A stretch of 64,000 nt of DNA from Candidatus Synechococcus calcipolaris G9 (GCF_029582805.1 NZ_JAKKUT010000002.1:892001-956000), one strand, 5' to 3'; positions 62-47,369 are shown, counted from the first letter of the stretch. Made by a program: numbers and translations. Notes: generated from the letters alone by a model not told the origin.

Positions 62-1111
62 TTAGAATTTGATATCCGGCCAGGTGGCGATCGCCTCGGT
101 AGATTTGACAATGTGCATCCCGGCATCGGCAAAGCGTTGAAAGGCCTGATCCGCCTGCTCACTAAAGTCCACCACCCCAGGAACGACGACGGGGGACGTG
201 CAGTCTTCCAGGAGATACACTTTTTTAACCAGGTCTGACCCCTGGGCCTGAAGCTCTGTGAGCAGATCCGCAATTGTCCAGGCCACACAATGGCTTTTGG
301 CTTGTCCGGCAATAATGACCACATCAAAATCCAGCAACCGTTGGATAAAGCGGGTATTTCTCTGGGCGATCGGGTGTCCTTGGCTACTCTCTAAGACCTC
401 GGGCTGGAGGACAGAATAGTTTTCCGTCAGGGGATTACCGCCCTTAATTTCAAACCGAGTCTGGCTATGGCGAGCCATATTGTGGAAAAAACAGGCTTCT
501 TCCACGGCCGCAACCAGGGCATGGCCGATTCCCCCCAAGAGAGAGTGGTAGGGCCAAATCGTCAGCGGGAATTTCCCGACCTGATCCAATGTTTGTACAT
601 AGTGGAGAGCGTGTTGTTGCAGGCCCATGTAGTTCCCCGCGGCTAAACTATGGGCGATCGCCGGGTTTACTTTCCAGCGGCCGGTTTGCACATCGGTCAA
701 TGTAATGGTTTGGAGAGGTGCGGGGTGATGCCCCCCATCATCAATCCAAAAAACAGCATGGAAAATTTGGCTGGCGGTGTGGGTGTCCATTGTCGGCGCA
801 ATTTCCGTAATCACACCCAGGTTGCGATAGATAAATTCACAGAGGCGGCGATTGTCCTCTACCGCACCCATCCCAGATGTTCCCCCCACAAACAGTTCAA
901 AGCCAGGAATACAAAAGGTATTTTGCACATCCACGAGCATTAAACAAATACGGGTTTTATCCGTAACCGCTGGAGCTAAAGGGTGGTACTTGGCCCAGGC
1001 CTGCGCCTCACTGGCCCGCTGTTGATAGGGCACTCGCCAGACTTCGCCGACGCGATCGCCGTGAAAATGTTGGGGAATGGGTAGTTCCGTAAGAGTTGGT
1101 GTTTTCATCAT
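62..1111 (-). CDS. Nicotinamidase-like (isochorismatase fold) cysteine hydrolase
   Basis: This is a cysteine hydrolase of the isochorismatase/nicotinamidase superfamily. The expected catalytic triad is visible as Asp near residue 62 (LVDVQ), Lys near 224 (FEIKGG) and Cys near 276 (AGQAKSHCV). An MDTH motif near 109-112 matches the metal-binding D-x-H of nicotinamidases. At about 349 residues it is much longer than PncA (about 210), so the substrate may differ from nicotinamide. The ATG at 1111 was chosen because an AGGA lies seven bases upstream; a TTG sits one codon before. It starts about 9 bases after the kinase-like gene and is the last gene of the PP2C-ADP-ribosylglycohydrolase-kinase operon. 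The fold is clear; the substrate is inference. Confidence 0.8.
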   Translation of the reverse strand: MMKTPTLTELPIPQHFHGDRVGEVWRVPYQQRASEAQAWAKYHPLAPAVTDKTRICLMLVDVQNTFCIPGFELFVGGTSGMGAVEDNRRLCEFIYRNLGVITEIAPTMDTHTASQIFHAVFWIDDGGHHPAPLQTITLTDVQTGRWKVNPAIAHSLAAGNYMGLQQHALHYVQTLDQVGKFPLTIWPYHSLLGGIGHALVAAVEEACFFHNMARHSQTRFEIKGGNPLTENYSVLQPEVLESSQGHPIAQRNTRFIQRLLDFDVVIIAGQAKSHCVAWTIADLLTELQAQGSDLVKKVYLLEDCTSPVVVPGVVDFSEQADQAFQRFADAGMHIVKSTEAIATWPDIKF

Positions 1112-1120
1112 CAAGGTTTC

Positions 1121-2974
1121 CTAAAGTATCTGTAGATATTGAATGGATTGGGGGTGAATCCCATAGAGGCCCTGCCGAGCCGGTAATAACTGGCAATGGC
1201 TATTCACAAAGGGTTCCGTTTCCGTAAATAAACGGGTGGGTTGCAGGTGTCCCTGCTGGAGTTCCAGCCGCAAAATTCCTGCATCTGTGGGGACAAACAA
1301 CTGATCTGCGATTGGGCAGGATCCACGACTGGCTAACCAATGATCCTCTTGATCGCTGGTGAGACTGGCTTCAATGTGGCCCTGAGCCTGGATGACGAGG
1401 AGGTGATAGTGACGTTTACCTTGACATTGGCTGGTGGCAAAGAGCCAGGCCCGATCGCCACTAAAGCAGCAGTGGAGGGTTAACAGTTGGCCCGGCCAGG
1501 CAGGAACGGTGAGGTGATCCTTGATGCCGGGGCGATCGCAATCAAAGATCAAAAGGGTCGTCAGGGTATCCATTCGATACAATCCCAACCCAAACGGGCC
1601 CACCCAAATAGCCGTTTGATGGAGGAGAACATCGCCCATATAAACCGGTGCCATTGGGCTCCCACGCAAGAGTTGGCCCTGATGAATCCAGTAGTAATGG
1701 CGATCGTTGCCCGCAAAACTGTGGCCCGGTAAATGGCAGGGATCCAGCCCAAAACGTTTCCTTAGATGGGGGCGATCGCCCAGAAGAACTAATTGGCCAC
1801 CGTTGCTGATGAGTGTAGCGGCTCCGTGGAGCATAAATTCTAGGTGGGGAGCGGGGGTTCCTTCTCCAACAATGGCCCCGTCCTCGCGGTGAAACCCCTG
1901 ATGATCGTGATAGAGCCAGCATAATTGATCTCCTTGCACAGTGGCAGTCACAATAATTCCTTGGGTTTGGAACAGCGTTTTTACATGGAGCGTCCCAGAT
2001 TGCAGGGGTGGCGCAATCACCCTAAGTTGGGCGAAACAGTTGGGACAGGTGGGTTTGGCGTGGTCTAGGCCACAGGTCGGACAGGTCTGCCACCTCAGTT
2101 GTCGCAGTAAGGTTTGGGGGAATACCCCGCGCTGATCCTGGCGAAAAACCTGCTCAAAATAATCTAGAATCGCCTCTGGTAAACAATGGAGAGGTAAGGC
2201 AGGCTTGGGATACCTAACCTGGGGGTCAAAAATACTGATGCGATGGAGCGATCGCGCCCCCTGGGGAATTTTATGGGTAGGATTTTTCGGTTGATAAACT
2301 CCGCCGTAGGGATGGACAAAAAGAAGACATTGCATCACCATCACCGTAAAGGCATACCAATCCGACTCATCGCGATAGGGTTGATCTAAACAAAGCTGAT
2401 GGCCGTGGTTACAAAGCTGGGGATCTAAAAATCGCTCCGTAAAGACACGGCAGGGAAAGGAACCAAACTGAAACGAATCCACATCAATAAAATAGGCTTG
2501 GTGATCCTGCACCAGAAGATTGAGATCATTAAAATCACCAATGATCATTCCCTGTTGATGGATTTGGGCCACCGTTTGATGCAGGTCTAACAGCATTGCC
2601 GTCACCTGTGGGGCCGAGATGCCCTGATGCCGAATCCGGCGATCGCCGTAGTCCAGTAAGGGGCGAGATGGCCTTAAAAAACGCATCGTATAGCCGACAA
2701 TTCTGCCGCTGCGATCGTAGGCAAACTCCTGAGGGGCAATGACCCGATCCGGTAAGCCTTTGGGAAGTTGGTGTAATTTTTCCTGGTGTTCCTGTAGCCG
2801 TACCTGTACCGCCTGTTGGAGGGGAGAAGAGGCTTGATAATCCGGGTGATGGGCTTGCTTAAAGAGTTTTAAGACCTGACCTGTGCCCAGATCATAGACT
2901 TCCGCCTCGCCGCCGTTACCAATTAACTGTTGCCGCCGAATAGAAACCTTTTTTTGATTCAGATAGATATTCAT
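1121..2974 (-). CDS. Atypical protein kinase-like protein with zinc ribbon and C-terminal beta-rich region
   Basis: The N-terminal 280 or so residues look like a divergent protein kinase. There is a glycine-rich loop (LIGNGGEAEVY, about 17-27), a VLK lysine near 36, GDFNDLNLL at about 146-154 in place of HRDxKxxN, and IDVDSF at about 164-169 in place of DFG. Such D-x-N-D-x-N loops occur in YegI-like kinases. A four-cysteine zinc ribbon follows (CPTC to CPNC, about 298-313). The last 300 residues are rich in short Trp/Gly strands and could be a beta-propeller-like sensor; this is inference. It sits 6 bases after the ADP-ribosylglycohydrolase gene and 9 before the hydrolase, co-transcribed with a PP2C phosphatase that could reverse its action. 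Kinase activity is plausible but not provable from sequence. Confidence 0.75.
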   Translation of the reverse strand: MNIYLNQKKVSIRRQQLIGNGGEAEVYDLGTGQVLKLFKQAHHPDYQASSPLQQAVQVRLQEHQEKLHQLPKGLPDRVIAPQEFAYDRSGRIVGYTMRFLRPSRPLLDYGDRRIRHQGISAPQVTAMLLDLHQTVAQIHQQGMIIGDFNDLNLLVQDHQAYFIDVDSFQFGSFPCRVFTERFLDPQLCNHGHQLCLDQPYRDESDWYAFTVMVMQCLLFVHPYGGVYQPKNPTHKIPQGARSLHRISIFDPQVRYPKPALPLHCLPEAILDYFEQVFRQDQRGVFPQTLLRQLRWQTCPTCGLDHAKPTCPNCFAQLRVIAPPLQSGTLHVKTLFQTQGIIVTATVQGDQLCWLYHDHQGFHREDGAIVGEGTPAPHLEFMLHGAATLISNGGQLVLLGDRPHLRKRFGLDPCHLPGHSFAGNDRHYYWIHQGQLLRGSPMAPVYMGDVLLHQTAIWVGPFGLGLYRMDTLTTLLIFDCDRPGIKDHLTVPAWPGQLLTLHCCFSGDRAWLFATSQCQGKRHYHLLVIQAQGHIEASLTSDQEDHWLASRGSCPIADQLFVPTDAGILRLELQQGHLQPTRLFTETEPFVNSHCQLLPARQGLYGIHPQSIQYLQIL

Positions 2975-2980
2975 GGCTAA

Positions 2981-3751
2981 TTAGGTGCAAAATCGGAACC
3001 GAAAGTCTTGGCTGGTCTGCCAAAGTGGCTCGTCTAAGGTTTCTCGGACAAGATTAAGAATTGGATCAGGAATTTCGCCATAAAATGCCTCGGCAATTCC
3101 CCCGGTAATACAGGCGATCGTGTCACTATCGCCGCCAATGGAAATGGCATTGCGAATAGCATCTTCAAAATCTGTAGATTCCAAAAAAGCAATGATGGCT
3201 TGGGGAACGGAGCCTTGGCAAGACACATCAAATTGATAGTGGGGGCGAATCTCATCCAAGGTTTGATCCAAGTTGTAACCAAAGGTTCTTTGGATATAGG
3301 TTTTAATCTCCTCTTTTGACGTGCCGGTGCGCGCCAAGAAAATTGCGGCGGCGGTGGATTGGGCCCCCTTAATACCTTCCGGGTGGTTGTGGGTCACGGA
3401 CGCACTGGCTTTGGCAAGCTCTAAAACCGTATCGAGGTCTTGGCCCACATAGGCTACTGGACTTACCCGCATTGCCGAGCCATTGCCCCAACTGTTATAG
3501 GGTTGACGGCGTTTCAAGGTTGCCCAAAGGGTAAAATTTTTGCCGTAGCCCGCTAGGGGATAACGCCAATAATAGTGATGGAGGGTCTCAATGTAATTCT
3601 TCCCGTGGAGATGGGCATCCGCAATGGCAACGGTCAGCACGGTATCATCCGTAAACCGAGTCATCAATTTTTTCAGGGGAAAATCTTTTGTTTTGACATT
3701 ACGCCATTCATAGGCGGAGCCAATAATATCCCCTGCAATTGCACCTAACAT
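2981..3751 (-). CDS. ADP-ribosylglycohydrolase (DraG/ARH family)
   Basis: This 256-residue protein belongs to the ARH/DraG family, which removes ADP-ribose from proteins, nucleic acids or small molecules. Both metal-binding signatures are present: FTDDTVLT at about 33-40 and GGDSDT at about 206-211, together with the N-terminal GAIAGDIIGS. Length is normal for a single-domain enzyme. Its start overlaps the end of the PP2C gene by 7 bases and the kinase-like gene follows after 6 bases, so translation is probably coupled. The neighbours suggest a signalling role rather than nitrogenase control; no nitrogenase or DraT gene is in the window. Substrate unknown. Confidence 0.9.
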   Translation of the reverse strand: MLGAIAGDIIGSAYEWRNVKTKDFPLKKLMTRFTDDTVLTVAIADAHLHGKNYIETLHHYYWRYPLAGYGKNFTLWATLKRRQPYNSWGNGSAMRVSPVAYVGQDLDTVLELAKASASVTHNHPEGIKGAQSTAAAIFLARTGTSKEEIKTYIQRTFGYNLDQTLDEIRPHYQFDVSCQGSVPQAIIAFLESTDFEDAIRNAISIGGDSDTIACITGGIAEAFYGEIPDPILNLVRETLDEPLWQTSQDFRFRFCT

Positions 3752-4548
3752 AATGAGTTCTCCAGTTGTTTACGGCGAATTAAAACCAGCGTTGTATCAT
3801 CTTCTAAGCGGCCACCTTGGCGATCGAGTACCTGGTTGTCCCAATCAGGGTGAATAATTTCACGATTACATTGGGCTAAATATCGCCGTAGTCGATCTGG
3901 ATTTTGGAAGATACGCGGATCCTCTGCCAAGGCTGCCATAGCAGGAAGAATGGAGCCAGCGGGGGCTAAATCTTTAACACCATCACTGCCCAAAACCAGA
4001 GTATTCACCGTAGCCGTGGGGCGGACAATCACTTGAAATTGCACGTTGGCATCCCGTTCTAGAGTTGGCACTAAGCCATAGGCCAAAAAGGGTGGACAAT
4101 TATCCACTACGGAACCCTTGAGGATCACCTCCTCATTGAGAATCACCACCCCATCTCCTAGGGAAAAAATGGCGGTTTGATCAGGGGTTAGTACCGCACC
4201 CACAATGGTGAACAGAAAATAATCCCGCATCACCGTTAGGGAATTTCCCATGGCACTGATCATTTGCTGCAACTGGGTTAGAAGTTCTTGGCGCAGGTCT
4301 TGCCAAAAGTCTGGACTAAACTCTAATTGCCCCCCATCTAGGGCCCGTTTCAGGGCAGATAAAACCAGCCGCGTCCCTAATTTGGCTCCCACCTCGGAAT
4401 GGGGAGAACTACCACAACCATCACAAACAATGGCGATCGCCCTGTTCGGACTCAGATCAATGGCATAGGCATCCTGGTTATTACGACCTAAATGGCGGTG
4501 CGATCGCCCGATAACCGTACCCGCAGCAAGTTCAAAAAGACGGTTCAT
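3745..4548 (-). CDS. PP2C-family serine/threonine phosphatase
   Basis: This is a PP2C-type metal-dependent phosphatase of about 267 residues. Visible motifs are NNQDAYAI near the N-terminus, CDGCGSSPHSEVGA (the D-G metal motif), LGSDGVKD, and DDTTLVLI near the C-terminus. A GTG start at 4572 is possible on paper, but the promoter -10 box lies at 4575-4580, so transcription should begin about 4568. That makes the ATG at 4548 (MNRLFELAAG) the credible start. It is the first gene of a four-gene operon and overlaps the ADP-ribosylglycohydrolase gene by 7 bases. Paired with the downstream kinase-like protein it probably forms a reversible phosphorylation switch; this is inference. Confidence 0.88.
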   Translation of the reverse strand: MNRLFELAAGTVIGRSHRHLGRNNQDAYAIDLSPNRAIAIVCDGCGSSPHSEVGAKLGTRLVLSALKRALDGGQLEFSPDFWQDLRQELLTQLQQMISAMGNSLTVMRDYFLFTIVGAVLTPDQTAIFSLGDGVVILNEEVILKGSVVDNCPPFLAYGLVPTLERDANVQFQVIVRPTATVNTLVLGSDGVKDLAPAGSILPAMAALAEDPRIFQNPDRLRRYLAQCNREIIHPDWDNQVLDRQGGRLEDDTTLVLIRRKQLENSLC

Positions 4549-4574
4549 TTGCTTTTGGTGTTTAACATACACTA

Positions 4575-4603
4575 ACTATAGTGTCAAAAAAACACTTTGT
4601 CAA
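4575..4603 (-). promoter_or_regulatory. Promoter of the PP2C-ARH-kinase operon, with alternating ACACT/AGTGT
   Basis: On the minus strand TTGACA (4598-4603) and TATAGT (4575-4580) are separated by exactly 17 bases, a near-perfect sigma-70 type promoter. The pentamers ACACT (4569-4573), AGTGT (4580-4584) and ACACT (4592-4596) alternate through it, giving two small overlapping inverted repeats across the -10 and spacer. These could bind a repressor. Confidence 0.7.
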
Positions 4604-6757: not shown

Positions 6758-7117
6758 TTACTTTGAATGATCATTGTAGAGGAGAGTTCCCGCATAAATT
6801 TGGGATGGGGGTAAGGTTTTATGGTAGTAGGCACCACGATAGGCATAAATACCTAATTCTTTCTCAGTATGTTGAAGTAAGGCCTGGGAGTTGGCCAGCG
6901 TTGCATCCACCCACAATTTGAGGGAGGTGTTGCCTTCGACCAATAGGCTAAAAATTCCCAACTGAAGACAGTAATGGGACACGCCAATGGCCACCTTAAA
7001 CTCTGTTTTCCGAAAGGAATAGAAGGGAATTAAATTTTTACCCTGAAAATGAAGTTCCTCCGACTCGGGTGCAAAGTACCCCTGGTGGGCTAAATCCCCA
7101 TGGCTCATCATCAGCAT
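6758..7117 (-). CDS. Hypothetical protein
   Basis: A 119-residue protein that I do not recognise. It has no signal peptide, membrane segment or clear motif; the composition is that of a folded soluble protein with aromatic-rich strands (FKVAIGVSHYCLQLGIFSLLV). It has an ATG start and lies about 40 bases upstream of the DUF4168-like gene on the same strand. The coding frame is clean, with normal codon use, so it is probably real. Confidence 0.6.
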   Translation of the reverse strand: MLMMSHGDLAHQGYFAPESEELHFQGKNLIPFYSFRKTEFKVAIGVSHYCLQLGIFSLLVEGNTSLKLWVDATLANSQALLQHTEKELGIYAYRGAYYHKTLPPSQIYAGTLLYNDHSK

Positions 7118-7360
7118 GTTCTACTTGCCCCCATCTCTGCGGCGATCGCTGGCTGTACTCGTCTGTAATTAATGTATCTTTTAATACAGATTTTTTCTAG
7201 AATCTTCAAAATTCTTCCTAAACCCCTTAAGAAAACGTCATCTTAGAACCCATCCCAAAAGGGTCAGATTGGGGGAGGCAGGACTCATCACACTGGGGGA
7301 GGTGAGGTATGGGGCGAACCAGGGATAGTGGGGATAACCCTACATTACGTGACTAGGATT

Positions 7361-7558
7361 ATGTTGCAGTTATCTATGAAAGAACTAAATCTTCAAATCG
7401 GCCAAAAACTCTATTTACGGGATGAGTTGTTCGAGATCATTGCCCTACGCCATGAGTTGGTTGTAGTGAAATCCCAAGAGCGGTCAGAATTGAGTTGGGT
7501 AGTGGCTAAAAGGGATTTACTCAAGTATTTCCGGGATTGCGAAGTGTCATCCTATTAG
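7361..7558 (+). CDS. Small hypothetical protein
   Basis: A 65-residue soluble protein starting MLQLSMKELN, rich in charged residues with a beta-strand pattern (QKLYLRDELFEIIALRHELVVVKS). The frame can extend upstream to a GTG at 7328, but the ATGs at 7361 or 7376 look more natural. It stands alone between two minus-strand genes. The family is not recognised; small cyanobacterial proteins of this type are common. Confidence 0.55.
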   Translation: MLQLSMKELNLQIGQKLYLRDELFEIIALRHELVVVKSQERSELSWVVAKRDLLKYFRDCEVSSY

Positions 7559-7599
7559 GAACACCTTAGGATACTGCCCCTGCCAGCACAATAACCCCG

Positions 7600-9686: not shown

Positions 9687-12600
9687 ATGGCCTTTCCAGA
9701 ACCTCAACTCATCCAGGTCATGGAGCGATTGCAAAGTGCTATCTTTGGTTGCGATCGCCATGGGCGACTGATATTTGTCAATGCCTATGGGGAGGCACTT
9801 GTCGGTCAACTCGCCAGCAGTGTTCAAGGGGTCTACCTGTGGGATATTTTACCTACCTCCCTTGGGTTGACTGCCGCAAAAGTCTTAATATGCCTGGAAA
9901 ACCAAACGGATTACCATTGGGATTGTTACGATCCCCTTGAGGAGAAGTGGTGGCAAGGATTTCTCTACCCGGATCAGGTGGGACTCACCCTGATGATGAC
10001 GGATATTAGCCAGCGGCAGCAGAGTCAAATTCTCCAGCAAGCCCAAGTCATCGAACTGGAAAAATGGTACCACCGCTTCCAAACCATGGGCCATCTCAGT
10101 CGTCAGATTTTTTGGGAATGGCATCAGGACACCAACTGGGCCCTGTGGAGTGGTGATACGATGACGGTTTTGGGCCATCCCCTCGAATCCATGCCCCGCT
10201 CCATTGAGGACTGGATGGGCTGGATCCACCCGGAGGATCAAGCTTGGTTCCAGGATTGTTTTTGGCAGGCCTGTGAAACAAAGACCTGTTTTGCCCAGGA
10301 CTACCGTCTTAGGGATGGCGATGGAGCCTACTACTGGGTCAGCGATCGCCGCGAGTTTGCCCAGAGTACAGAAGGACAGACCCATGGGTGGGGAATTATT
10401 GTCGATATTCACGATCGCAAGATCATGGAGTTAGCCCTCGCCGAAAGTGAATATCGCTGGCGCACGATTTTTGAAGCGGCGGCCCTGGGAATTGTCATTG
10501 TGGAGCCAGGGAACAACTATAAATTAGTCTCCTGCAATCCATCCTTCTCTGAATTTGTCGGCTATAGTATCCCCGAACTCCTAGACTTACATCCAGCGGA
10601 TCTCACCTTTCCTGAGGACTGGCAGAGGGAGCAAGCCCTCATTCACCAGTGCTGTGAACAGTCAAAAAAGTTCTATCAATTCAAAAAGCGATATCGTCAC
10701 AAAAATGGTCAGGTTCTCTGGGCGAATTTAACCCTATCCTACGTTCAAGATGATCAACACAATCTGCAATTTATTGTTGCCCTGATTGAAAATATTAGCG
10801 ATCGCCAGACCTTAGAAGACTCCCTGGAGACAGAACGCTTTCGCTATCAACAACTGGTCGAAAACTCCCCCAATCTCATCCTCAGTCTAGATGCCCTTAA
10901 ACATCTCAAAACCATTAACTGGGCTGCCCTAGACGTTTTAGATTCCCTGGATACCGATGAGGGCCAATCCTACCAAAAGTTACTCCATCCCCAGGAGTCT
11001 ATCGAGCGGGTTGAATACCTCCTCGATCGCGTCCTCCAGGGTGAATCAATCAGTGACATCGAGCTTATTTTCAATAGCCCCGATGGTCAACCCCATTATA
11101 TGCTGACCCACCTCTATCCCCTTGTTAGCCATCACCAGCAACAGGATTCCACTGGCTGTGTTTTGATTAGCACCGATATTACCGCCCAAAAGAAAGCCCT
11201 CCAAGACCTGAACGAACGGGAAGCCCAATATCGCAGTGTGTTTGAATCCGTCACCGATGGCCTCCATGTTTTTGATATGGATACGGGCAAACTAGTGGAA
11301 GCAAATCCGGCGGCCTGTGCCATGCATGGCTATACCTACGCAGAGTTCATGGATTTAGACCCACGGCAGTTTGTCCACCCCAATTGCCATGCCATGTTTA
11401 GCAATTTTATGGAAACGGTTCGGGCTGGCAAACGTTTTGAATCCGAGGCTCAAAATATCTGTAAAGATGGCTCCATCATTGATATTCATGTCTATGGTTT
11501 ACAGTTTACCTACCGCGGTCGCCCCCATGTCCTATCCGTGGTACGGGACATTACCGAACTCAAACAGATTGAAGCAAAACGGCAGCAGGTTGAAAACCAA
11601 CTTCGGGAAAGTGAAAACCTCTTTCGATCCCTGATTCATGACCTGAATGTGGGTGTCATTGTCTATGGTCAAACGGGAGATGTGCAAATCGTCAACCATA
11701 AGGCCTGTGAACTGCTTGGTTTAACGGAGGCGGAATTTCTCGGGAAAACCTGCTTTGACCTAGACTGTCAACTCCTCAATGAAGAGGGCAGCCCCATCCC
11801 CATGGAGCAGCATCCGGTAGCCCAGGCGATCGCCCAAAGGCAGTGCATTCCTAATCGAGTAGTCGGTGTTCACAACCATCAAACCCATGACCTCCATTGG
11901 TTGCAAGCCACCGCAGATCCGCAAACTACGCCCCAGGGAACCGTTGGCCGCGTCATTGTTACCTTTAGTGATATTAGCGATCGCAAACGCACCGAGGATC
12001 AACTGCGTCACCAGGCAGAGCGGGAACAGGCCCTTAACCATGTGATTCAGTCCATCCGCGACTCCATTGACATTGAAACAATTTTTACGACCACGGTGCA
12101 GCAAATCGGCTCCCTCCTGAAGCTCGATCGGGCCCTGATTACGGAATATATGCCGGAACAAAAGGGTTGGGTTGCCATTCATGAGCATCGTCCCGATCCA
12201 TCCACACCCACAACCCTGGGGGTGATTATTCCTGAGGAAGATAACCCCGTCAGTGATCAGGTCAAACAGGGAAAAATGGTACGCCTCGATCGGATAGCTG
12301 ATACTGATTTAGCCAACGATCACAATAATCCCTGTGCATTCATTGAACAATCCGGCGGCTGGTTAATTTTTCCCTTGGTTATTAATCATCAAACCTGGGG
12401 AACCTTGACCCTTCAGCGGTACGATGAACATCCCAATTGGCAGGATCATGAAATTGCCCTCGCCCAGTCCGTTGTCAATCAACTGGCCGTCGCCATTCGC
12501 CAAGCCCAACTTTATCGGGATTTGCAACACGCCAACGCCGAACTCTCACGCCTGGCCACCATTGATGGATTAACCCAAATTGCCAATCGGCGGCACTTTG

Positions 12601-13115
12601 ATCTCCATTTGTCCCAAGAATGGCAACGCTGTTTACGGGAGCAAGCCTGTTTATCCCTAGTGCTGTGTGATGTGGACTACTTCAAACCCTACAATGACCA
12701 CTACGGCCACCAAGCGGGGGATGATTGCCTGATTCAAATTGCCCAAACCCTGGCCCAAGCTGCCCGTCGCTCCACGGATTTAATTGCCCGCTACGGTGGT
12801 GAAGAGTTTGCCTTAGTTTTACCCAATACCGATTTAGACGGTACGTTACGGGTGATCCACAAAATTCAAGAAGCCCTACATCGACTCAATATCCCCCATT
12901 TAGCCTCGTCTATTGGCGATCGCATTACCATTAGCTTTGGTGTTGTCACCCTTACCCCCCATTCCTCCCGTTCCCTAGACGAGTTCTTAAACGCCGCAGA
13001 TCAATCCCTCTACCACGCCAAGCAGTCCGGCCGCAATACCTACTGTATCCATTATTTGAGCTATTCTAATCCGGCTTCACCGGAGACGACCTCACCGGAT
13101 TTACGAATCACCTAA
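9687..13115 (+). CDS. Multi-PAS, GAF sensor diguanylate cyclase
   Basis: A 1142-residue cytoplasmic sensor that should make cyclic di-GMP. Roughly six PAS-type units occupy residues 1-780 (repeated patterns such as EYRWRTIFEAAALGIVIVEP, REAQYRSVFESVTDGLHVFD and ENLFRSLIHDLNVGVIVYG, each ending near a DISDRK- or DITELK-like linker). A GAF domain lies at about 790-945 and a GGDEF domain at about 965-1120 with RYGGEEFALVLPNT, an active-site-competent GGEEF. No transmembrane segment is visible. The GAF domain lacks an obvious bilin cysteine motif, so it may not be a phytochrome. It stands alone in its transcription unit. Confidence 0.93.
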   Translation: MAFPEPQLIQVMERLQSAIFGCDRHGRLIFVNAYGEALVGQLASSVQGVYLWDILPTSLGLTAAKVLICLENQTDYHWDCYDPLEEKWWQGFLYPDQVGLTLMMTDISQRQQSQILQQAQVIELEKWYHRFQTMGHLSRQIFWEWHQDTNWALWSGDTMTVLGHPLESMPRSIEDWMGWIHPEDQAWFQDCFWQACETKTCFAQDYRLRDGDGAYYWVSDRREFAQSTEGQTHGWGIIVDIHDRKIMELALAESEYRWRTIFEAAALGIVIVEPGNNYKLVSCNPSFSEFVGYSIPELLDLHPADLTFPEDWQREQALIHQCCEQSKKFYQFKKRYRHKNGQVLWANLTLSYVQDDQHNLQFIVALIENISDRQTLEDSLETERFRYQQLVENSPNLILSLDALKHLKTINWAALDVLDSLDTDEGQSYQKLLHPQESIERVEYLLDRVLQGESISDIELIFNSPDGQPHYMLTHLYPLVSHHQQQDSTGCVLISTDITAQKKALQDLNEREAQYRSVFESVTDGLHVFDMDTGKLVEANPAACAMHGYTYAEFMDLDPRQFVHPNCHAMFSNFMETVRAGKRFESEAQNICKDGSIIDIHVYGLQFTYRGRPHVLSVVRDITELKQIEAKRQQVENQLRESENLFRSLIHDLNVGVIVYGQTGDVQIVNHKACELLGLTEAEFLGKTCFDLDCQLLNEEGSPIPMEQHPVAQAIAQRQCIPNRVVGVHNHQTHDLHWLQATADPQTTPQGTVGRVIVTFSDISDRKRTEDQLRHQAEREQALNHVIQSIRDSIDIETIFTTTVQQIGSLLKLDRALITEYMPEQKGWVAIHEHRPDPSTPTTLGVIIPEEDNPVSDQVKQGKMVRLDRIADTDLANDHNNPCAFIEQSGGWLIFPLVINHQTWGTLTLQRYDEHPNWQDHEIALAQSVVNQLAVAIRQAQLYRDLQHANAELSRLATIDGLTQIANRRHFDLHLSQEWQRCLREQACLSLVLCDVDYFKPYNDHYGHQAGDDCLIQIAQTLAQAARRSTDLIARYGGEEFALVLPNTDLDGTLRVIHKIQEALHRLNIPHLASSIGDRITISFGVVTLTPHSSRSLDEFLNAADQSLYHAKQSGRNTYCIHYLSYSNPASPETTSPDLRIT

Positions 13116-13262
13116 TTCTATCCATAGCCTGTCCATAAAAATTTTGGTGACAAGAATTTCCCCATCCCTGATAATAGAGACTTTGCCCCAATGAATATCT
13201 TGCGGGGTTGAGGTCATAATTTTGGACACATTTTATTTCGGACGCATTTTGATGGTTTTTGC

Positions 13263-16308: not shown

Positions 16309-16313
16309 ACAGT

Positions 16314-16360
16314 GTTGACATTTATGGGACGTTGACATTTATGGTGAAATCTACTATAAA
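16314..16360 (+). promoter_or_regulatory. Promoter of the NAD operon with duplicated TTGACATTTATGG
   Basis: TTGACA (16,332-16,337) and TATAAA (16,355-16,360) are spaced by 17 bases. The 14-mer GTTGACATTTATGG occurs twice, at 16,314-16,327 and 16,331-16,344, so the -35 region is duplicated with a 17-base period. The duplication may be an operator; the NrtR encoded downstream is the obvious candidate, which is inference. Confidence 0.65.
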
Positions 16361-16388: not shown

Positions 16389-17723
16389 ATGACGGCTTTG
16401 AATCTCAGTGCTGACGACTACGGATTACTGACGGATCTCTATCAACTCACCATGGCTGCGGCCTATGTGGGGGAAGGCATTGCCGAGCAGCCCAGTAGTT
16501 TTGAACTAACGGTGCGGCGGTTGCCCCTGGGCTATGGCTATTTAGTGGCCATGGGACTTGCCCAGGTGGTGGACTACCTAGAGAATTTTCATTTTAGCCC
16601 AGAGCAGATTGCCTATCTCCAAAGCCTAGAGGTTTTTCAGCGGGCACCGGACTCCTTTTGGACATTATTGGCAGGGGCACGATTTTCCGGCAATCTTTGG
16701 GCCGTTCCCGAAGGCACCGTTGTCTTTGCCCATGAGCCGCTATTGCGGATTGAGGCTCCCCTTTGGCAGGCCCAGATCCTCGAAACCTATATTCTCAATA
16801 CGATTAATTACCAGACCTTGATTGCCACACGGGCGGCCCGGCTTCGGGATATGGTGGGCCCCAAGGCTCCCCTATTAGAATTTGGTACCCGGCGGGCCTT
16901 TAGTCCCCAGGCATCCCTTTGGGCGGCGCGGGCGGCCTTGGCGGGGGGGTTTACGGCCACCTCCAATGTTTTGGCGGCCCAGCGGCTAGGGGTTGTCCCC
17001 GCTGGCACCATGGCCCATGCCCTAGTGATGGCCCTAGAGGCCACCCAGGGTTCGGAGCAACAGGCCTTTACCACCTTTTCCCAGTATTTTCCCGGCTCTG
17101 CTCTCCTGATTGACACCTTCGATACGATCGCAGCGGCAGAAGTCCTGGCCCAGCGGCGGGAGGCAGGGGAATTAGAAATTACAGCGGTGCGGATTGATTC
17201 GGGAGATCTGGTGCATTTATCCCAGCAGATTCGCCAACTCTTACCGGATGTCAGTATCGTGGCCAGTGGTGATTTGGATGAAACGGAAATTATGCACCTG
17301 CAAGCCTCTGGGGCCTGTATTGATGCCTATGGCATTGGCACCAAACTCGTCACGGGTACGCCGGTGAATGGGGTTTATAAGCTGGTGGAGTTTAATGGCA
17401 AGGGAGTGATGAAGGAATCCAGCGGCAAAATGACCTTACCCGGTCGGAAGCAAATTTTCCGATCGCCCGAGGCGGATATCCTGGGCCTGATGACAGACAC
17501 CTCGGTTCCGGGGGTACGCCTTTTGATGCCAATTATGGATGAAGGAAAGCTAGTTGCCTTGATGCCTCCCCTAGGGGACATTCGCCAACATACCCGCGCC
17601 TCAGTGGCCAATCTGCCGACAATGGTACGGATTAATGCCCAGCCGGAACCCTACCCGGTCGCCTATTCCCTCGCCCTCCAGGAACTGGTGGATCGCATTC
17701 AACAGCGGCGGGCCCTATGCTAA
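16389..17723 (+). CDS. pncB: Nicotinate phosphoribosyltransferase
   Basis: This enzyme converts nicotinic acid and PRPP to nicotinate mononucleotide in the Preiss-Handler salvage route. The 444-residue protein has LLTDLYQLTMAAAY at the start, LEFGTRRAFSPQ, and the phosphoribosyl-binding RIDSGDL and GIGTKLVTG segments. It leads the operon, and its stop overlaps the nadD start by 7 bases, so the two are probably translationally coupled. Confidence 0.95.
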   Translation: MTALNLSADDYGLLTDLYQLTMAAAYVGEGIAEQPSSFELTVRRLPLGYGYLVAMGLAQVVDYLENFHFSPEQIAYLQSLEVFQRAPDSFWTLLAGARFSGNLWAVPEGTVVFAHEPLLRIEAPLWQAQILETYILNTINYQTLIATRAARLRDMVGPKAPLLEFGTRRAFSPQASLWAARAALAGGFTATSNVLAAQRLGVVPAGTMAHALVMALEATQGSEQQAFTTFSQYFPGSALLIDTFDTIAAAEVLAQRREAGELEITAVRIDSGDLVHLSQQIRQLLPDVSIVASGDLDETEIMHLQASGACIDAYGIGTKLVTGTPVNGVYKLVEFNGKGVMKESSGKMTLPGRKQIFRSPEADILGLMTDTSVPGVRLLMPIMDEGKLVALMPPLGDIRQHTRASVANLPTMVRINAQPEPYPVAYSLALQELVDRIQQRRALC

Positions 17724-18292
17724 GGATTGCCCTCTTTGGAACCAGTGCGGATCCGCCCACCCTGGCCCACAAGGATATTCTCCAATGGCTCGGAGATCGC
17801 TACGATCGGGTGGTGGTGTGGGCCGCCGACAATCCCTTTAAGGCCAATCAAACCCCCCTGGAACATCGCCAAGGAATGCTGAAATTATTGGTGGATCAAC
17901 TCAATGGGAGCCACCCCCAGATTGAACATCACCCGGAGTTGAGTTTTCCCTATACCCTTTATTCCGTCAATACCGCGCGGCAACGCTGGCCCCAGGCAGA
18001 GTTTAGTTTAGTCATTGGTACGGATGTTTTAGCTAAACTTCCCCACTGGTATCGGGTCGAGGATCTCCTAGACCAAGTGAACCTATTGATCTTGCAGCGA
18101 CCGGGGGTGCATATTTCAGCGGATATTTGGCAACAGGTAGCAGCATTATCCGCCAAGATGGAAATGGCCGACTACGTTGGCCCCGCCGTCTCCTCAACGG
18201 CCTGTCGCCAAGGGGAGCCTTCCGTTGCCCTGATTCCGGCGATCGCCTCCTACATTCACCAAGAGAACCTATACCAGTCCGGCAATCCATGA
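17717..18292 (+). CDS. nadD: Nicotinate-nucleotide adenylyltransferase
   Basis: It adenylates nicotinate mononucleotide to deamido-NAD. The N-terminal GTSADPPTLAHKDI is the nucleotidyltransferase motif, although family members usually read GGSFDPPHxGH: the second His position is kept (AHK) and the first differs (TLAH). At 191 residues it is normal in length. It overlaps pncB upstream and shares an ATGA with nrtR downstream. Confidence 0.9.
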   Translation: MLRIALFGTSADPPTLAHKDILQWLGDRYDRVVVWAADNPFKANQTPLEHRQGMLKLLVDQLNGSHPQIEHHPELSFPYTLYSVNTARQRWPQAEFSLVIGTDVLAKLPHWYRVEDLLDQVNLLILQRPGVHISADIWQQVAALSAKMEMADYVGPAVSSTACRQGEPSVALIPAIASYIHQENLYQSGNP

Positions 18293-19074
18293 CCAGTATC
18301 CATTCCCCCTCCTATCCTACCGTGGTGAATCCTGGCTCCCCCATTGCCGATCGACCAACGGTTTTGGCCGAGTTTGTGGTGGGGGTTGATAATGTCATTT
18401 TTTCAGTGGATACCCTGGAAAATCGCCTGCTGGTCTTACTCGTGAACCGTAGACAAGACCCCTTTGCTGGCTACTGGAGTTTACCGGGAACTCTGGTGCG
18501 CCAGGGGGAGTCCCTAGAGGCAGCGGCCTATCGGACATTGTCCGAAAAAATTCGGGTTAAAAACCTCTACCTGGAGCAACTCTATACCTTTGGTGGCCCG
18601 GATCGGGATCCCCGCGAATCTAGCACTGCCTACGGTACTCGGTATTTGTCCGTCAGTTACTTTGCCCTTGTGCGCTATGAAGATGCGGAACTGATTTGCC
18701 CGCCTGAATCTGGAACCACCCCCCAGCGAATTCGTTGGTTTTCGATGGAGCAAATTCCCGATTTGGCCTTTGATCATCGGCGAATTGTTCAGTACGGCCA
18801 ACGGCGATTATGCAGTAAATTAGAATACAGTCCGGTGGCCTTTGAGGTTCTGCCCGACACCTTTACTCTCAACGATTTATATCAACTCTATAGTACGGTT
18901 TTAGGGGAGAATTTTTCCGACTATTCTAATTTTCGGGCACGACTCCTAAAACTAGGAATTTTACAAGATACCGGCGAGAAAATCACCCGCGGGGCAGGCC
19001 GTCCCGCTAGTTTGTACCGCTTTGACCCGGATGCGTTTGCTCCCCTGAAAGATAAACCCCTCCTTTTTGTTTAA
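18289..19074 (+). CDS. nrtR: NrtR-type Nudix/winged-helix regulator of NAD metabolism
   Basis: A 261-residue protein with an N-terminal Nudix-like domain (about 22-165) and a C-terminal winged helix (about 175-250, with FTLNDLYQLYSTVL and a GAGRPASLYRF wing). This is the NrtR architecture, a repressor that responds to ADP-ribose-type ligands. The Nudix box (about 67-90) is degenerate: the catalytic R-E-x-x-E-E reads R-T-L-S-E-K and the final G is R, so it probably binds rather than hydrolyses. The start at 18,289 overlaps the nadD stop as ATGA; a longer frame from 18,127 would lie deep inside nadD. Position in the operon suggests autoregulation. Confidence 0.85.
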   Translation: MTSIHSPSYPTVVNPGSPIADRPTVLAEFVVGVDNVIFSVDTLENRLLVLLVNRRQDPFAGYWSLPGTLVRQGESLEAAAYRTLSEKIRVKNLYLEQLYTFGGPDRDPRESSTAYGTRYLSVSYFALVRYEDAELICPPESGTTPQRIRWFSMEQIPDLAFDHRRIVQYGQRRLCSKLEYSPVAFEVLPDTFTLNDLYQLYSTVLGENFSDYSNFRARLLKLGILQDTGEKITRGAGRPASLYRFDPDAFAPLKDKPLLFV

Positions 19075-19122
19075 GGCTCAGTTTTTTATTGATCCTCTCT
19101 TGAATTCTCCAAAGGTTTGAGA

Positions 19123-20022
19123 ATGCAACTAAGCCCACTCGAAGATCTCAAAAATGATGTGATTCCCTACGCCTATTACCGTCACGATGAGGGGGATAGA
19201 AGTGGGTTTTTCCATACCTATGATGGTTTGCAGCTAGACCCGGCAATCGATCAACCCCGCAAAGTCCATATCTTTTTGCCCCGGGACTACGAAACTAGCG
19301 ATCGCCCCTATCCGGTGATCTATATGAATGATGGTCAAACGGCATTTTGGCCCGAGGGTCTCAGTGCCTACTCCTGGGATGTCCGCCAAACCCTAGCAGA
19401 CCTCTATCAACTGGCCAGGATATCGCCGGTGATTATTGTGGCAGTCCATCCCCTCAATCGCGCCCACGAATACCTGCACGTCAAGGAATATTCAACACCG
19501 CTACGGAAAGAAGGGGGGGGATTACCCATCTACAGTGATTACATGGTCAGGTTAAAGAAATTTGTGGATGATCATTACCGTACCCTCAGGGATCGGCGTT
19601 GGACAACGGTTGTTGGTTCCTCCCATGGCGGTTTAGCGGCCTTTTACACTGGGGCTACCCATGGCCACTATTTTGGAAATTTAGCAGCCCTCTCCCCCTC
19701 ATTTTGGGTGGGAGGCGTGTTTAATCTACGGGATACTCCCTTAATGAGTGCCGTGCATCACTATCTTTTACCCACGAATCAAGATCGTCCCCGTATTTGG
19801 ATTGATTGGGGATTAAAGCGTTTCGGCGGTTTTCATAACTCCTTAATTGAACAGCAGGCGGCGAAATGGGGGAAGGAAATGGTGCGACTCCTGGAAATGG
19901 ATTATATGTATCGCAAAAACAAAGATCTATTTGTCTACAAAGATAAAATTGGCGGCCACGATGAACGATCCTGGGCCTATCGTTTTCGCCTAGTGCTGCA
20001 AACCTTTTATGGCCTCACCTAA
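19123..20022 (+). CDS. Esterase-like alpha/beta hydrolase
   Basis: A putative esterase of the esterase D/enterochelin esterase type, about 299 residues. The core reads PVIYMNDGQTAFW, a nucleophile elbow VVGSSHGGLAAFY (Ser in GSSHG), and a late HDERSWAYR that could give the catalytic His. No signal peptide is visible, so it is probably cytoplasmic. It lies between nrtR and nadE in an NAD operon; a link to NAD metabolism is possible but unproven. The ATG at 19,123 was preferred over an upstream TTG. Confidence 0.8.
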   Translation: MQLSPLEDLKNDVIPYAYYRHDEGDRSGFFHTYDGLQLDPAIDQPRKVHIFLPRDYETSDRPYPVIYMNDGQTAFWPEGLSAYSWDVRQTLADLYQLARISPVIIVAVHPLNRAHEYLHVKEYSTPLRKEGGGLPIYSDYMVRLKKFVDDHYRTLRDRRWTTVVGSSHGGLAAFYTGATHGHYFGNLAALSPSFWVGGVFNLRDTPLMSAVHHYLLPTNQDRPRIWIDWGLKRFGGFHNSLIEQQAAKWGKEMVRLLEMDYMYRKNKDLFVYKDKIGGHDERSWAYRFRLVLQTFYGLT

Positions 20023-20050
20023 TGGCTATCCCCCAACATCTCTGGCTGCC

Positions 20051-21796
20051 ATGAACATTGCGATCGCCCAGATTAATCCGATCATTGGTGATTTGGTTGG
20101 TAACAGCCAGAAAATTCTAGAGGTCGCTCAGGGAGTTGTAGAGCCGAATCGCTCCCCCGCCGTGGATCTACTGATCACCTCTGAGCTTGCCCTCTGTGGC
20201 TATCCCCCCAAGGATTTACTCATGGATCCCCATTTTATTGAGGCCATGGATCGGCAACTGGAAGAGCTAACCCTAAATCTACCGCCATCCCTCACCCTGT
20301 TGCTGGGAACTGTTCGTAAAAATAAACTTGCCCAGGACACTGGCGGAAAAACCCTCCTAAATGGGGCCGTGTTAATTCAGGATCAAGCCATTATTCAAAC
20401 CTTTGCCAAACGATTACTGCCCACCTACGATGTCTTTGATGAAGATCGTTATTTTGAACCGGGGCATACCGCTAATCATTTTGAATTAGACCTCCAGGGT
20501 AAATCGATCAAAATCGGTGTCACCATCTGTGAAGATCTTTGGAATGATGAGCAGTTTTGGGGACAGCGACGCTATCAGATCAATCCGGTGGCTGAGTTGG
20601 TGCAGGAACAGGTGGATTTGATTGTCAACCTTTCGGCCTCTCCCTATAGTCTGGGCAAACCCAAGCTCCGGCAACAGCTTTTAGCCCATACGGTACAGCG
20701 ATATGGCTGCCCGATCATCTATGTCAATCAGGTGGGGGGAAATGACGATCTCATTTTTGATGGCCATAGTTTAGCGGTGAATCGCCCTGGGGAAATCGTT
20801 GCCCAAGCTGCGGGTTTCCAGGAGGATATTCTAGTCGTGCCTTGGCAGCAGGGGGACTTGCAACCAAGCCGTAAGACCCCCCTGGCCCAGAGTGAACAGG
20901 AAGAAATGTGGCGGGCGTTGGTATTGGGGGTGCAGGACTACGCCCAAAAATGTGGTTTTCGGCAGGCGGTGATCGGTCTCAGTGGTGGTATTGATTCAGC
21001 CCTTGTGGCCGCGATCGCCACGGCGGCCCTGGGGCCCGAAAATGTCCTCGGTATTCTGATGCCCTCCCCCCATAGCTCCGATCACTCCATTACCGATGCC
21101 CTGGCCCTGGCCAAAAATCTGGGGATACAAACCCATACCCTGGCCATTGCGGATTTAATGAAGGGCTACGATCGCACCCTGGAGACCCTCTTTTTGGGAA
21201 CCACCCCAGGGGTAGCCGAAGAAAATATCCAGGCCCGGATTCGCGGTACCCTCCTGATGGCGATCGCCAATAAATTTGGCCATTTGTTAATCTCTACGGG
21301 TAATAAATCCGAATTAGCCGTGGGCTACTGCACCCTCTACGGGGATATGAGTGGCGGGTTGGCAGCGATCGCCGATGTTCCCAAAACCAAAGTGTATGCC
21401 CTCTGCCACTGGTTAAATGCCCAAGCAAAGCATAATCCCTTAAATTTAGCTGCCTTTAATTTAAGCCAAGGGCCCGCGAATATTATTCCAGAACACATCT
21501 TGACCAAACCCCCCAGTGCGGAACTCAAGCCTGGCCAAACCGATCAAGACTCCCTGCCGGACTACGATAGTTTGGATGATATTCTCGAGCAAATGATTGA
21601 TCACCACCAGGCCGATGCCGCCATTGTCAGCCGAGGCCATGACCCCGCCCTCGTGGAACGGATTCGCTCCCTGGTACACCGGGCGGAATTTAAGCGTCAG
21701 CAAGCGGCCCCAGGCTTAAAAATTACGGAGCGGGCCTTTGGTTCGGGGTGGCGAATGCCCATTGCTGCCAAAATCAGGATTCAACATCAAAATTAA
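20051..21796 (+). CDS. nadE: Glutamine-dependent NAD+ synthetase
   Basis: The last step of NAD synthesis: amidation of deamido-NAD using glutamine. The 581-residue protein has an N-terminal nitrilase-like glutaminase domain (SELALCGYPPKDL, VTICEDLWND with the catalytic Cys, NLSASPY) and a C-terminal synthetase domain with the pyrophosphate loop GLSGGIDSAL and STGNKSELAVGY. The start at ATG 20,051 (MNIAIAQINP) fits the family; the upstream frame overlaps the esterase gene. Confidence 0.96.
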   Translation: MNIAIAQINPIIGDLVGNSQKILEVAQGVVEPNRSPAVDLLITSELALCGYPPKDLLMDPHFIEAMDRQLEELTLNLPPSLTLLLGTVRKNKLAQDTGGKTLLNGAVLIQDQAIIQTFAKRLLPTYDVFDEDRYFEPGHTANHFELDLQGKSIKIGVTICEDLWNDEQFWGQRRYQINPVAELVQEQVDLIVNLSASPYSLGKPKLRQQLLAHTVQRYGCPIIYVNQVGGNDDLIFDGHSLAVNRPGEIVAQAAGFQEDILVVPWQQGDLQPSRKTPLAQSEQEEMWRALVLGVQDYAQKCGFRQAVIGLSGGIDSALVAAIATAALGPENVLGILMPSPHSSDHSITDALALAKNLGIQTHTLAIADLMKGYDRTLETLFLGTTPGVAEENIQARIRGTLLMAIANKFGHLLISTGNKSELAVGYCTLYGDMSGGLAAIADVPKTKVYALCHWLNAQAKHNPLNLAAFNLSQGPANIIPEHILTKPPSAELKPGQTDQDSLPDYDSLDDILEQMIDHHQADAAIVSRGHDPALVERIRSLVHRAEFKRQQAAPGLKITERAFGSGWRMPIAAKIRIQHQN

Positions 21797-42734: not shown

Positions 42735-43016
42735 CTATTCAATCGCGGTGACATTTTGGCGAATCCGATTAATATCACCTTCCATTTGTCCTGACTCAAT
42801 CTCCTGAATCATTTGATTGCCATAGAACTCAACCAACCTTAGATAGGCTTTGCGAGTTAGCAAACTCCCTCCGGCGATCGCCAGACGGCAAATCTCAACC
42901 TGCTCGTAAATCGATTTACCTAGCGGTAGCATCAATGCTGCTCGAATCGATTTTTTACGGTGAGCCTGTACCATTTCCCGCCGCTCGGCGATCGTTTTTC
43001 CAGCAAAATCAAACAT
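42735..43016 (-). CDS. Hypothetical protein of the element
   Basis: A 93-residue helical, soluble protein (ERREMVQAHRKKSIRAALML, YEQVEICRLAIAGGSLL). No motif is recognised. Its start overlaps the stop of the upstream 151-residue gene by one base, so it is in the primase operon. Confidence 0.62.
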   Translation of the reverse strand: MFDFAGKTIAERREMVQAHRKKSIRAALMLPLGKSIYEQVEICRLAIAGGSLLTRKAYLRLVEFYGNQMIQEIESGQMEGDINRIRQNVTAIE

Positions 43017-43471
43017 TATTTATCCTCCAAATAAATGTCTCGTTCAATGATTTGCCGGTCAAGTGAAGCCCACCGGCCACCATCGGATTCCAGTAAATAG
43101 AAGCCGTTATCGCACTGCTCCGCCACAGTCCACCATTCAGGACTATGCCCTAAAGATTCCAGCCAGTGCCGTAGATAGAACCTCGACCCCACAGGGATAG
43201 GGTCAGGTTCATTAGTGTGTGACACTTCTAAAAAATCGTCACATGACGAAGGCTGCATTTCACGATCTTTTTTTCTGGATTTCCCACCCCCTTGTTTTTT
43301 TGGTGTTACCGGTGTTACCGGTGTTACCGATCCTGGAAACCCTTGATATACATAGGTTTCATCGGTAACACCGGTAACACCGATTTTTAATAGGGGGGGG
43401 GAAATGCCGATCAAAGTTTTGTCTTTTGCATTTTCGGCTCCCAAAGTGTCACATACCTTTTCATTCCCCAT
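43016..43471 (-). CDS. Hypothetical protein encoding VTP/VTG repeats
   Basis: A 151-residue protein. Residues 30-60 hold GVTGVTDETYVY and SVTPVTPVTP, produced by a striking inverted and direct DNA repeat (43,302-43,381). The C-terminal half (GSRFYLRHWLESLGHSPEWW) looks folded and may carry the function. It overlaps the end of the primase gene by 11 bases. Function unknown; the repeats may matter as DNA or RNA rather than as protein. Confidence 0.62.
   Translation of the reverse strand: MGNEKVCDTLGAENAKDKTLIGISPPLLKIGVTGVTDETYVYQGFPGSVTPVTPVTPKKQGGGKSRKKDREMQPSSCDDFLEVSHTNEPDPIPVGSRFYLRHWLESLGHSPEWWTVAEQCDNGFYLLESDGGRWASLDRQIIERDIYLEDK
43302..43381. repeat. Tandem GGTGTTACC repeats forming a 21-bp perfect inverted repeat
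   Basis: GGTGTTACC occurs three times head to tail (43,302-43,328) and its complement GGTAACACC twice (43,364-43,381). Positions 43,311-43,331 and 43,361-43,381 are exact reverse complements over 21 bases with a 29-base loop. The structure lies inside a gene right after the primase gene. It could be an origin-type iteron set, a protein site or an RNA hairpin. Confidence 0.75.
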
Positions 43472-46130: not shown

Positions 46131-46137
46131 TTAATTT

Positions 46138-46172
46138 CCCTCCAGGGAAGTTTGAAGTTTGTTCCTGGAGGG
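46138..46172 (-). promoter_or_regulatory. Hairpin sequestering the primase ribosome binding site
   Basis: Nine-base perfect arms CCCTCCAGG (46,138-46,146) and CCTGGAGGG (46,164-46,172) flank a 17-base loop. In the leftward mRNA the SD GGAGGG lies in the 3' arm, 7 bases from the ATG, so the fold would hide it. This suggests translational control of replication. Confidence 0.6.
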
Positions 46173-46215
46173 GTAGAATGGAATTGCTATTCGATTCAGC
46201 CCCACCAGGCATTTA

Positions 46216-46254
46216 GAACCCCCGCCCCGCACGGTTGGGGGTTCTCGTTTTTTT
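46216..46254 (+). terminator. Rightward terminator-like hairpin
   Basis: The stem GAACCCCC/GGGGGTTC (46,216-46,223 with 46,237-46,244) has a 13-base loop and is followed by TCG and a run of seven Ts on the plus strand. No rightward gene precedes it, so it may stop antisense transcription or act as the stem of a bidirectional element. Confidence 0.5.
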
Positions 46255-46453
46255 ATCTCTCTAACCAGTTAAGATACTCCTCGACCAATCGCTTGTGATC
46301 TGGCGAATTGAGATCATTTCTAATTAGAAAATCTTGGACTAGGACGCGGTTCCAGAAGATGCTCCGATTTGGCTGTATCCAGTAAATGCCTTTCGGTAAT
46401 TTTCGCCGCAGGTCGGACTGAATTTGCTTTTTTAGTCCAAAATTCCTGGTCAA
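46253..46453 (-). CDS. Small hypothetical protein of the element (possible excisionase-like)
   Basis: A 66-residue basic protein (LPKGIYWIQPNRSIFWNRVL, NSPDHKRLVEEYLNWLER) with a TTG start at 46,453 and no ATG available. Its size, basic charge and position between integrase and primase fit a small regulator or excisionase, but no motif proves it. It could also be a non-coding frame. Confidence 0.45.
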   Translation of the reverse strand: MTRNFGLKKQIQSDLRRKLPKGIYWIQPNRSIFWNRVLVQDFLIRNDLNSPDHKRLVEEYLNWLER

Positions 46454-46637
46454 AAAACTCGAATCGACAAATTGAAATTGGGGGGGGTAGCAGTTGGCAC
46501 AATTTACCTCCTAGGGTTTTCAAGTTTGGGGTTTTGGGGCTTTAGGGGGGGAGAAGCCGTCAGTAAGCTTTTAAGCTTCTTAAGCCTAATCGAATTTTTT
46601 ACAGGCAAACCGAATTTGGGATTAATCGCTAGAAGGC

Positions 46638-47366: not shown

Positions 47367-47369
47367 GGA

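Follow-up and report, generated by a model that had tools for sequence, protein, structure and literature searches.

What joins a protein phosphatase, a protein kinase and enzymes of NAD and ADP-ribose chemistry in a single bacterial operon? We addressed this question for a locus at one end of a 64,000-nucleotide stretch of DNA (hereafter, the window) from Candidatus Synechococcus calcipolaris G9, a cyanobacterium with a 3.3 Mb genome (C2:892001-956000; C2 is NZ_JAKKUT010000002.1). The locus encodes a PP2C-type phosphatase, an ADP-ribosylglycohydrolase (ARH), a divergent protein kinase, a divergent nicotinamidase-type hydrolase that we call NIC, and a vWA protein. We propose, with a probability of roughly 0.6, that the operon is an ADP-ribose-induced NAD salvage unit that places a divergent nicotinamidase under a TerY-P-like phospho-switch.

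Five genes form one operon

A preliminary description, made by a model from the sequence alone, placed four closely spaced genes behind one consensus promoter. All four open reading frames were found on the minus strand; the ARH and PP2C genes overlap by 7 bases, and the kinase-ARH and NIC-kinase gaps measure 6 bases each. The promoter was likewise found where described. The features are as follows.

4575-4603, minus strand: sigma-70-type promoter, TTGACA-17-TATAGT, 11/12 consensus bases
4579-4597: NrtR-type palindrome 1, AAGTGT-N7-ACACTA, between -35 and -10
4556-4574: NrtR-type palindrome 2, TAGTGT-N7-ACACCA, over the predicted transcription start
3745-4572, minus strand: PP2C-type Ser/Thr phosphatase, 275 aa from GTG (PF13672)
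2981-3751, minus strand: ARH, ADP-ribosylglycohydrolase of the ARH/DraG/ARH3 type, 256 aa (PF03747)
1121-2974, minus strand: predicted divergent protein kinase with zinc ribbon and C-terminal beta-propeller, 617 aa
62-1114, minus strand: NIC, divergent nicotinamidase-type (isochorismatase/nicotinamidase-like) hydrolase, 350 aa
1-8, minus strand: first bases of the vWA gene, 263 aa, the remainder outside the window (C2:891217-892000)

For PP2C, an ATG at 4548 is a likelier start than the GTG and would give a protein of 267 aa. The operon had been taken to end at position 62. Fetching the next 12.5 kb past the window edge revealed a fifth gene, vWA, which starts at window position 8, 53 bases past the NIC stop, and is clipped by the edge (whole gene, C2:891217-892008; L002:11217-12008). 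The full operon is PP2C-ARH-kinase-NIC-vWA. The proposal of a TerY-type PP2C-kinase pair tied to NAD/ADP-ribose chemistry stands; its second half, that ARH and the nicotinamidase-like enzyme take the place of vWA, is ruled out, as vWA is simply the next gene. The apparent replacement is an artefact that arose because the window edge cuts the vWA gene off.

PP2C, kinase, NIC and vWA are the conserved core

A kinase search of genome contigs yielded 29 loci, on which all locus counts below are based. They span cyanobacteria, Desulfococcaceae, Parcubacteria, Komeilibacteria, Uhrbacteria and two metagenome-assembled genomes, one from Acidobacteria and one from Aenigmatarchaeota. Wherever the contig was long enough, the order was PP2C-(ARH, 0 to 3 copies)-kinase-NIC-vWA, a few inserted genes aside. 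Absence of this order from related genomes had been named in advance as evidence against the grouping; the order is instead conserved across phyla and recurs in dozens of independent genomes, far beyond chance. The three same-family genomes sampled have neither kinase nor vWA. ARH was present in 17/29 loci, every one from a cyanobacterium; the searched loci of other organisms and of viruses had none, which rules it out as a core member. The conserved core is therefore the quartet of PP2C, kinase, NIC and vWA, with ARH an optional cyanobacterial part.

NIC and vWA of the window share about 65 to 76% identity with their counterparts in other cyanobacteria and 60 to 66% with those of Parcubacteria and Komeilibacteria, whereas kinase identity is far lower (38 to 48%). 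Kinase and vWA occur in the identical 10 of 291 cyanobacterial genomes (P ~1e-18 for two sets of ten coinciding at random, phylogeny ignored). Distance trees of NIC, kinase and vWA are correlated (Mantel r = 0.71 to 0.82, with 0/5000 permutations as high), as expected of genes that mostly travel together. In the NIC tree, many branches of which are weakly supported, cyanobacterial NICs would have to change between the operon-borne and the stand-alone state about four times, and every outgroup NIC is operon-borne. We prefer the simplest reading, an old quartet whose switch was lost where NIC now stands alone. That NIC outlives its regulators suggests a metabolic role of its own for NIC and a regulatory role for the triad of kinase, PP2C and vWA.

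An NrtR-type operator and NAD genes accompany the quartet

The palindrome TAGTGT-N7-ACACTA was detected in 25/29 loci, almost always immediately upstream of PP2C and, in relatives, usually between the -35 and -10 boxes; three of the four loci without it are contigs that end short of the promoter. Palindromes with at most one mismatch occur at 4 sites in the 3.3 Mb genome, 2 of which are the tandem copies over the promoter of this operon. A Nudix-helix-turn-helix (Nudix-HTH) protein of the NrtR family, usually divergently encoded, adjoins or lies near the operon in 23/29 loci. In this genome the NrtR ortholog is unlinked to the operon (C2:1797881-1798567; locus L040, local 6879-7568) and lies a few genes away from a nadA-like gene. 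It carries Nudix and NrtR_WHD domains (PF21906, E = 1.3e-29) and is 68% identical to the operon-adjacent NrtR of Acaryochloris.

NrtR is said to control a regulon of NAD homeostasis, reportedly described by Rodionov in 2008. The operon has much in common with such regulons: the Nudix plus winged-helix regulator, a palindrome with a 7-base spacer over the promoter, and NAD genes, all as for MsNrtR, whose release by ADP-ribose has been published (PMC6800001). The box sequence is different here, NrtR boxes being known to differ between lineages (PMC6800001), and a phosphorylation module has been added. By analogy with MsNrtR, ADP-ribose would release this genome's NrtR from the palindromes.

Across relatives, the quartet is often found beside pncB, nadE or the Nudix-HTH NrtR gene. 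One locus (L114, G073) reads PP2C-kinase-NIC-vWA-NrtR-PncB-PRPP synthase (Prs)-NadE, all in one direction, and a Komeilibacteria locus (L029) adds PncA, PncB, a Nudix protein, an NAD-kinase-like protein and NadE, as well as NrtR. On a Variovorax megaplasmid, a PP2C-kinase-pncB cluster is found and, separately, NIC and vWA beside NrtR-like, Nudix, macro-domain and NAD kinase genes.

NIC is a candidate nicotinamidase

By itself, the window NIC has no Pfam match. The residues expected of a nicotinamidase are invariant in all 51 homologues, viral ones included, both the catalytic D61, K223 and C275 and the metal-site D109, H111 and H189. A NIC profile run against PDB placed Mycobacterium tuberculosis PncA first, with a weak E value (0.04) and three catalytic blocks aligned. 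The AlphaFold2 model of NIC (pLDDT, 83) returned the Acinetobacter baumannii nicotinamidase first in Foldseek (2wta, E = 9e-6). In VIA-align, nicotinamidases from fly, pneumococcus, yeast and Staphylococcus aureus lead (Z = 14 to 15; 9u8m, Z = 14.9 with 211 aligned residues and a root mean square deviation of 3.4), with other isochorismatase-like hydrolases close behind. NIC thus shares with the PncA/Pnc1 nicotinamidases the fold, the catalytic D-K-C and the metal-binding D-H-H; it differs in being about 20% identical to them, longer (350 versus ~200 aa) and below the cut-off of the curated PncA model.

The distribution of NIC points the same way. Among 291 cyanobacterial genomes, NIC is found in 71 and pncB in 83, with both in 69 (Fisher P = 6e-50, phylogeny not corrected for). 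Canonical PncA exceeds the cut-off in only 3/291 of these genomes, none of which has NIC, and the 8 genomes with NadV contain neither NIC nor pncB. Within this genome, the sole other PF00857 protein resembles a YcaC-type hydrolase, leaving NIC as the only apparent nicotinamidase candidate. Given its tracking of pncB, the rarity of PncA, the exclusion from NadV genomes and the YcaC-like character of the alternative, NIC is therefore the best candidate for the nicotinamidase of PncB-using cyanobacteria.

Decay of NIC was seen in genomes of ~2.6 Mb from the same family. Two of them keep PncB, with NIC in pieces in one (G109) and interrupted by a stop in the other (G199); in a third (G203), NIC and PncB are both fragments.

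The phosphatase, kinase and vWA protein resemble a TerY-P triad

PP2C matches PF13672 (PP2C_2) with 84 bits, and its metal-site residues D26, D43, D132, D189, D250 and D251 are invariant in 33 homologues. The zinc-ribbon kinase of the preliminary description was borne out: the GxGGEA loop and N152 are kept, K36, D147 and D164 are invariant in 44/44 homologues, and the four zinc-ribbon cysteines (C298, C301, C310 and C313) are kept in 40/44. Alone, the window kinase falls under the Pfam cut-off (E = 0.003), and Pkinase is matched by 15/22 members of its family (best E = 1.2e-6); these motifs and Pfam matches are the basis for the predicted kinase assignment of 1121-2974. In the predicted model, residues 327 to 617 align to WD propellers (Z ~16), the matches of that search being to the propeller only. 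The vWA protein has no Pfam vWA match and is assigned from context and from a full MIDAS motif (DDSGS...T...D), with D65, S67, S69, T134 and D170 invariant in 36 homologues. ARH is a clear member of its family (PF03747, ADP_ribosyl_GH, 128 bits; top family-profile matches, ARH3 structures, E = 1.7e-26) and retains the metal motifs TDDT and GGDSDT. Searches of kinase, NIC and vWA against PADLOC, PHROGs and NCBIfam gave nothing beyond weak matches. A PADLOC match of ARH to DISARM DrmD (E = 2e-4) was dismissed as a faint likeness of the ADP-ribosylglycohydrolase (ARG) fold only.

According to PMC11090510, which relays Anantharaman 2012, the TerY-P triad comprises a TerY-like vWA protein, PP2C and a Ser/Thr kinase with a zinc ribbon. 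The same three proteins are present here, with active and metal sites intact and the zinc ribbon C-terminal to the kinase, so that the set has the sequence-level features of that triad as given there. The differences are an added beta-propeller on the kinase and the company kept: TerY-P triads are linked to Ter or restriction/DNA-processing modules, whereas here the partners are the nicotinamidase-like NIC, NrtR and NAD salvage. No Ter or DNA-processing gene was recognised beside the quartet among annotated or Pfam-scanned neighbours, only some neighbours having been scanned. Actinobacterial GAP1-N2 systems contain a trio of kinase-zinc ribbon-beta-rich protein, PP2C and stand-alone vWA (PMC7159879) that is likewise similar, the kinase being fused to both the zinc ribbon and a beta-rich domain; no GAP1-N2 GTPase was recognised here, and NAD enzymes are found instead.

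Closest in theme among published neighbourhoods are the ARG-centric systems with Nudix-HTH regulators and vWA, for which a role in reversing viral ADP-ribosylation is predicted (PMC9503650, section 3.8). ARH, a Nudix-HTH regulator and vWA are common to both. The defining core is not shared: there, ARG is the conserved core, accompanied by rhodanese-type (or HAD/HD/calcineurin) phosphatases and chaperones, whereas here the core is PP2C-kinase-NIC-vWA, the operon phosphatase is PP2C, and ARH has the patchy distribution described above. PMC9503650 names neither PP2C nor isochorismatase nor PncA. Literature searches, which did not extend to subscription papers, found no description matching a quartet with a nicotinamidase.

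The quartet is present on IMG/VR contigs and in huge phages

All four quartet genes are carried by 17 IMG/VR contigs (42 to 436 kb), some with PncB, NadE or NadD, and by three huge-phage records (LR756500, LR745208 and LR756511; 462 to 595 kb), where they lie within ~4 to 12.5 kb. Terminase matches (phrog_2), which support a viral nature, were obtained for 8/17 IMG/VR contigs tested and 3/3 huge phages; phrog_2 also matches most bacterial control genomes, so that these matches do not prove a viral origin for each IMG/VR contig. Terminase_6N, used as a virus check, matched 1/19 contigs. No ARH was detected in the viral cassettes searched. Phage NAD+ salvage is itself an established theme (PMC9503650; NARP1, PMC12774641).

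A model for the operon and its alternatives

Cleavage of NAD+ yields ADP-ribose and nicotinamide. We propose that an NrtR-family repressor bound to the two promoter palindromes would hold the operon off, and that ADP-ribose from NAD+ breakdown would lift the repressor and permit expression. NIC would then act as a metal-dependent nicotinamidase converting nicotinamide to nicotinate, which PncB, NadD and NadE could rebuild into NAD+. ARH would strip ADP-ribose off modified proteins and thereby also supply inducer. Kinase, PP2C and vWA would form a TerY-P-like phospho-switch governing how active NIC or its partners are, or how they assemble. This switch is the least certain step; NIC and vWA, the members most conserved in sequence, are natural candidates for the kinase substrate.

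Several observations weigh against this model. Most sampled cyanobacterial NICs stand alone, which implies that the phospho-switch is dispensable for NIC function. Neither the window's pncB nor nrtR (L040) was found to be preceded by a box of the strict pattern. Pfam Isochorismatase is matched by only 4/21 NIC homologues, and the curated PncA model NF008623 has no match in this genome, NIC falling below it. Finally, the PncA-like gene of the Komeilibacteria locus lies in the same NAD cluster as NIC; in that setting NIC may thus act on some other substrate or serve in regulation. The NF008623 result and the Komeilibacteria PncA favour an alternative that we consider doubtful, in which NIC is an isochorismatase-superfamily amidase acting on a different amide, such as a nicotinamide with a modification or a signal derived from NAD, and the operon makes or removes a signal instead of salvaging NAD; the extra N-terminal 50 residues and the insert that set NIC apart from PncA fit this view as well. 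It is harder to reconcile with the invariant, nicotinamidase-typical metal triad, with nicotinamidases topping a structural ranking in which other isochorismatase-like hydrolases follow closely, with pncB co-occurrence, and with NIC being the only nicotinamidase candidate in a genome whose other PF00857 protein is YcaC-like.

A possible, if minority, explanation is that the operon belongs primarily to biological conflict, reconstituting NAD+ after NAD-depleting defence or viral ADP-ribosylation, as counter-defence in phages and as repair in hosts. The viral and huge-phage quartets with their terminase matches, the precedent of phage NAD+ salvage and the predicted role of the ARG-centred systems all speak for it; yet no ARH was detected in the viral cassettes, cyanobacterial NIC follows the housekeeping PncB and outlives the triad, and the PADLOC defence families gave one weak match only. 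Such a role is compatible with NAD salvage rather than exclusive of it. The TerY-P architecture, as PMC11090510 presents it, could also suggest a metal- or tellurite-type stress system sharing its transcript with NAD enzymes by accident. This is very improbable: no Ter gene was recognised among the annotated or Pfam-scanned neighbours, NIC accompanies the triad in almost all loci, even across great distances, with trees that agree, and the existence of triads lacking NIC, as on a Deinococcus plasmid, indicates that the NIC-triad link is specific. Single operons often mix unrelated genes, but chance or housekeeping co-transcription without functional coupling is refuted by a conserved gene order that cyanobacteria share with an archaeon and phages, and the identical phyletic distribution of kinase and vWA argues against it too.

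Beyond the NAD salvage model for this operon, we put at even odds the wider claim that a phosphorylation-switched module for reconstituting NAD+, so far unreported as such, is common to cyanobacteria, candidate-phyla bacteria, archaea and huge phages, and that NIC is the missing nicotinamidase of PncB-using cyanobacteria. If true, the TerY-P-like kinase/phosphatase/vWA switch would gain a concrete metabolic client in NAD+ salvage, and a gap would be filled in cyanobacteria that have nicotinate phosphoribosyltransferase and no recognised nicotinamidase. Huge phages with the same four genes would offer a testable, regulated route to rebuild NAD+ against NAD-depleting defences. Protein phosphorylation may thus control how cells and phages rebuild NAD.

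Other features of the window and of related loci

A distal NAD pathway cluster lies on the plus strand of the same window, spanning 16389-21796.

16389-17723, plus strand: pncB (TIGR01513)
17717-18292, plus strand: nadD, recognised by reading the open reading frame
18127-19074, plus strand: second NrtR-like gene (paralogue)
20009-21796, plus strand: nadE, recognised by reading the open reading frame

Two direct repeats, GTTGACATTTATGG, lie at 16310-16345, upstream of pncB (16389); they may serve as operator for the second NrtR-like gene and are unlike the box of the PP2C operon. Elsewhere in the window, 43016-48518 is a possible integrated element, with a large primase/helicase-like open reading frame (43461-46130) and a tyrosine-recombinase-like one (47370-48518).

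Among the related operons, an in-frame TAG interrupts the kinase gene at one locus (L108, G304), where the rest of the operon looks intact. In Pseudanabaena, genes are inserted at the kinase-NIC and NIC-vWA junctions (L008:11954-12961; L011:11886-12482; L016/L017, ~11883-13237; L011:13819-14331); the inserts include DUF4917, a 198-aa protein, a PIN-like toxin-antitoxin pair and OGFr_N. The NAD genes of the Variovorax megaplasmid (NZ_LR594667; L138/L135) are surrounded by RNase HII, AlkB, RecX and macro-domain genes, and this region may derive from a jumbo phage or a phage-plasmid. The NIC-less triad of the Deinococcus psychrotolerans plasmid (L137) is ordered vWA-PP2C-kinase and lies beside transposases; its kinase is only distantly related to that of the window. 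On a Vibrio vulnificus plasmid (L136), a NIC homologue belongs to a gene run that also encodes an RNA ligase and a TerD-family protein.

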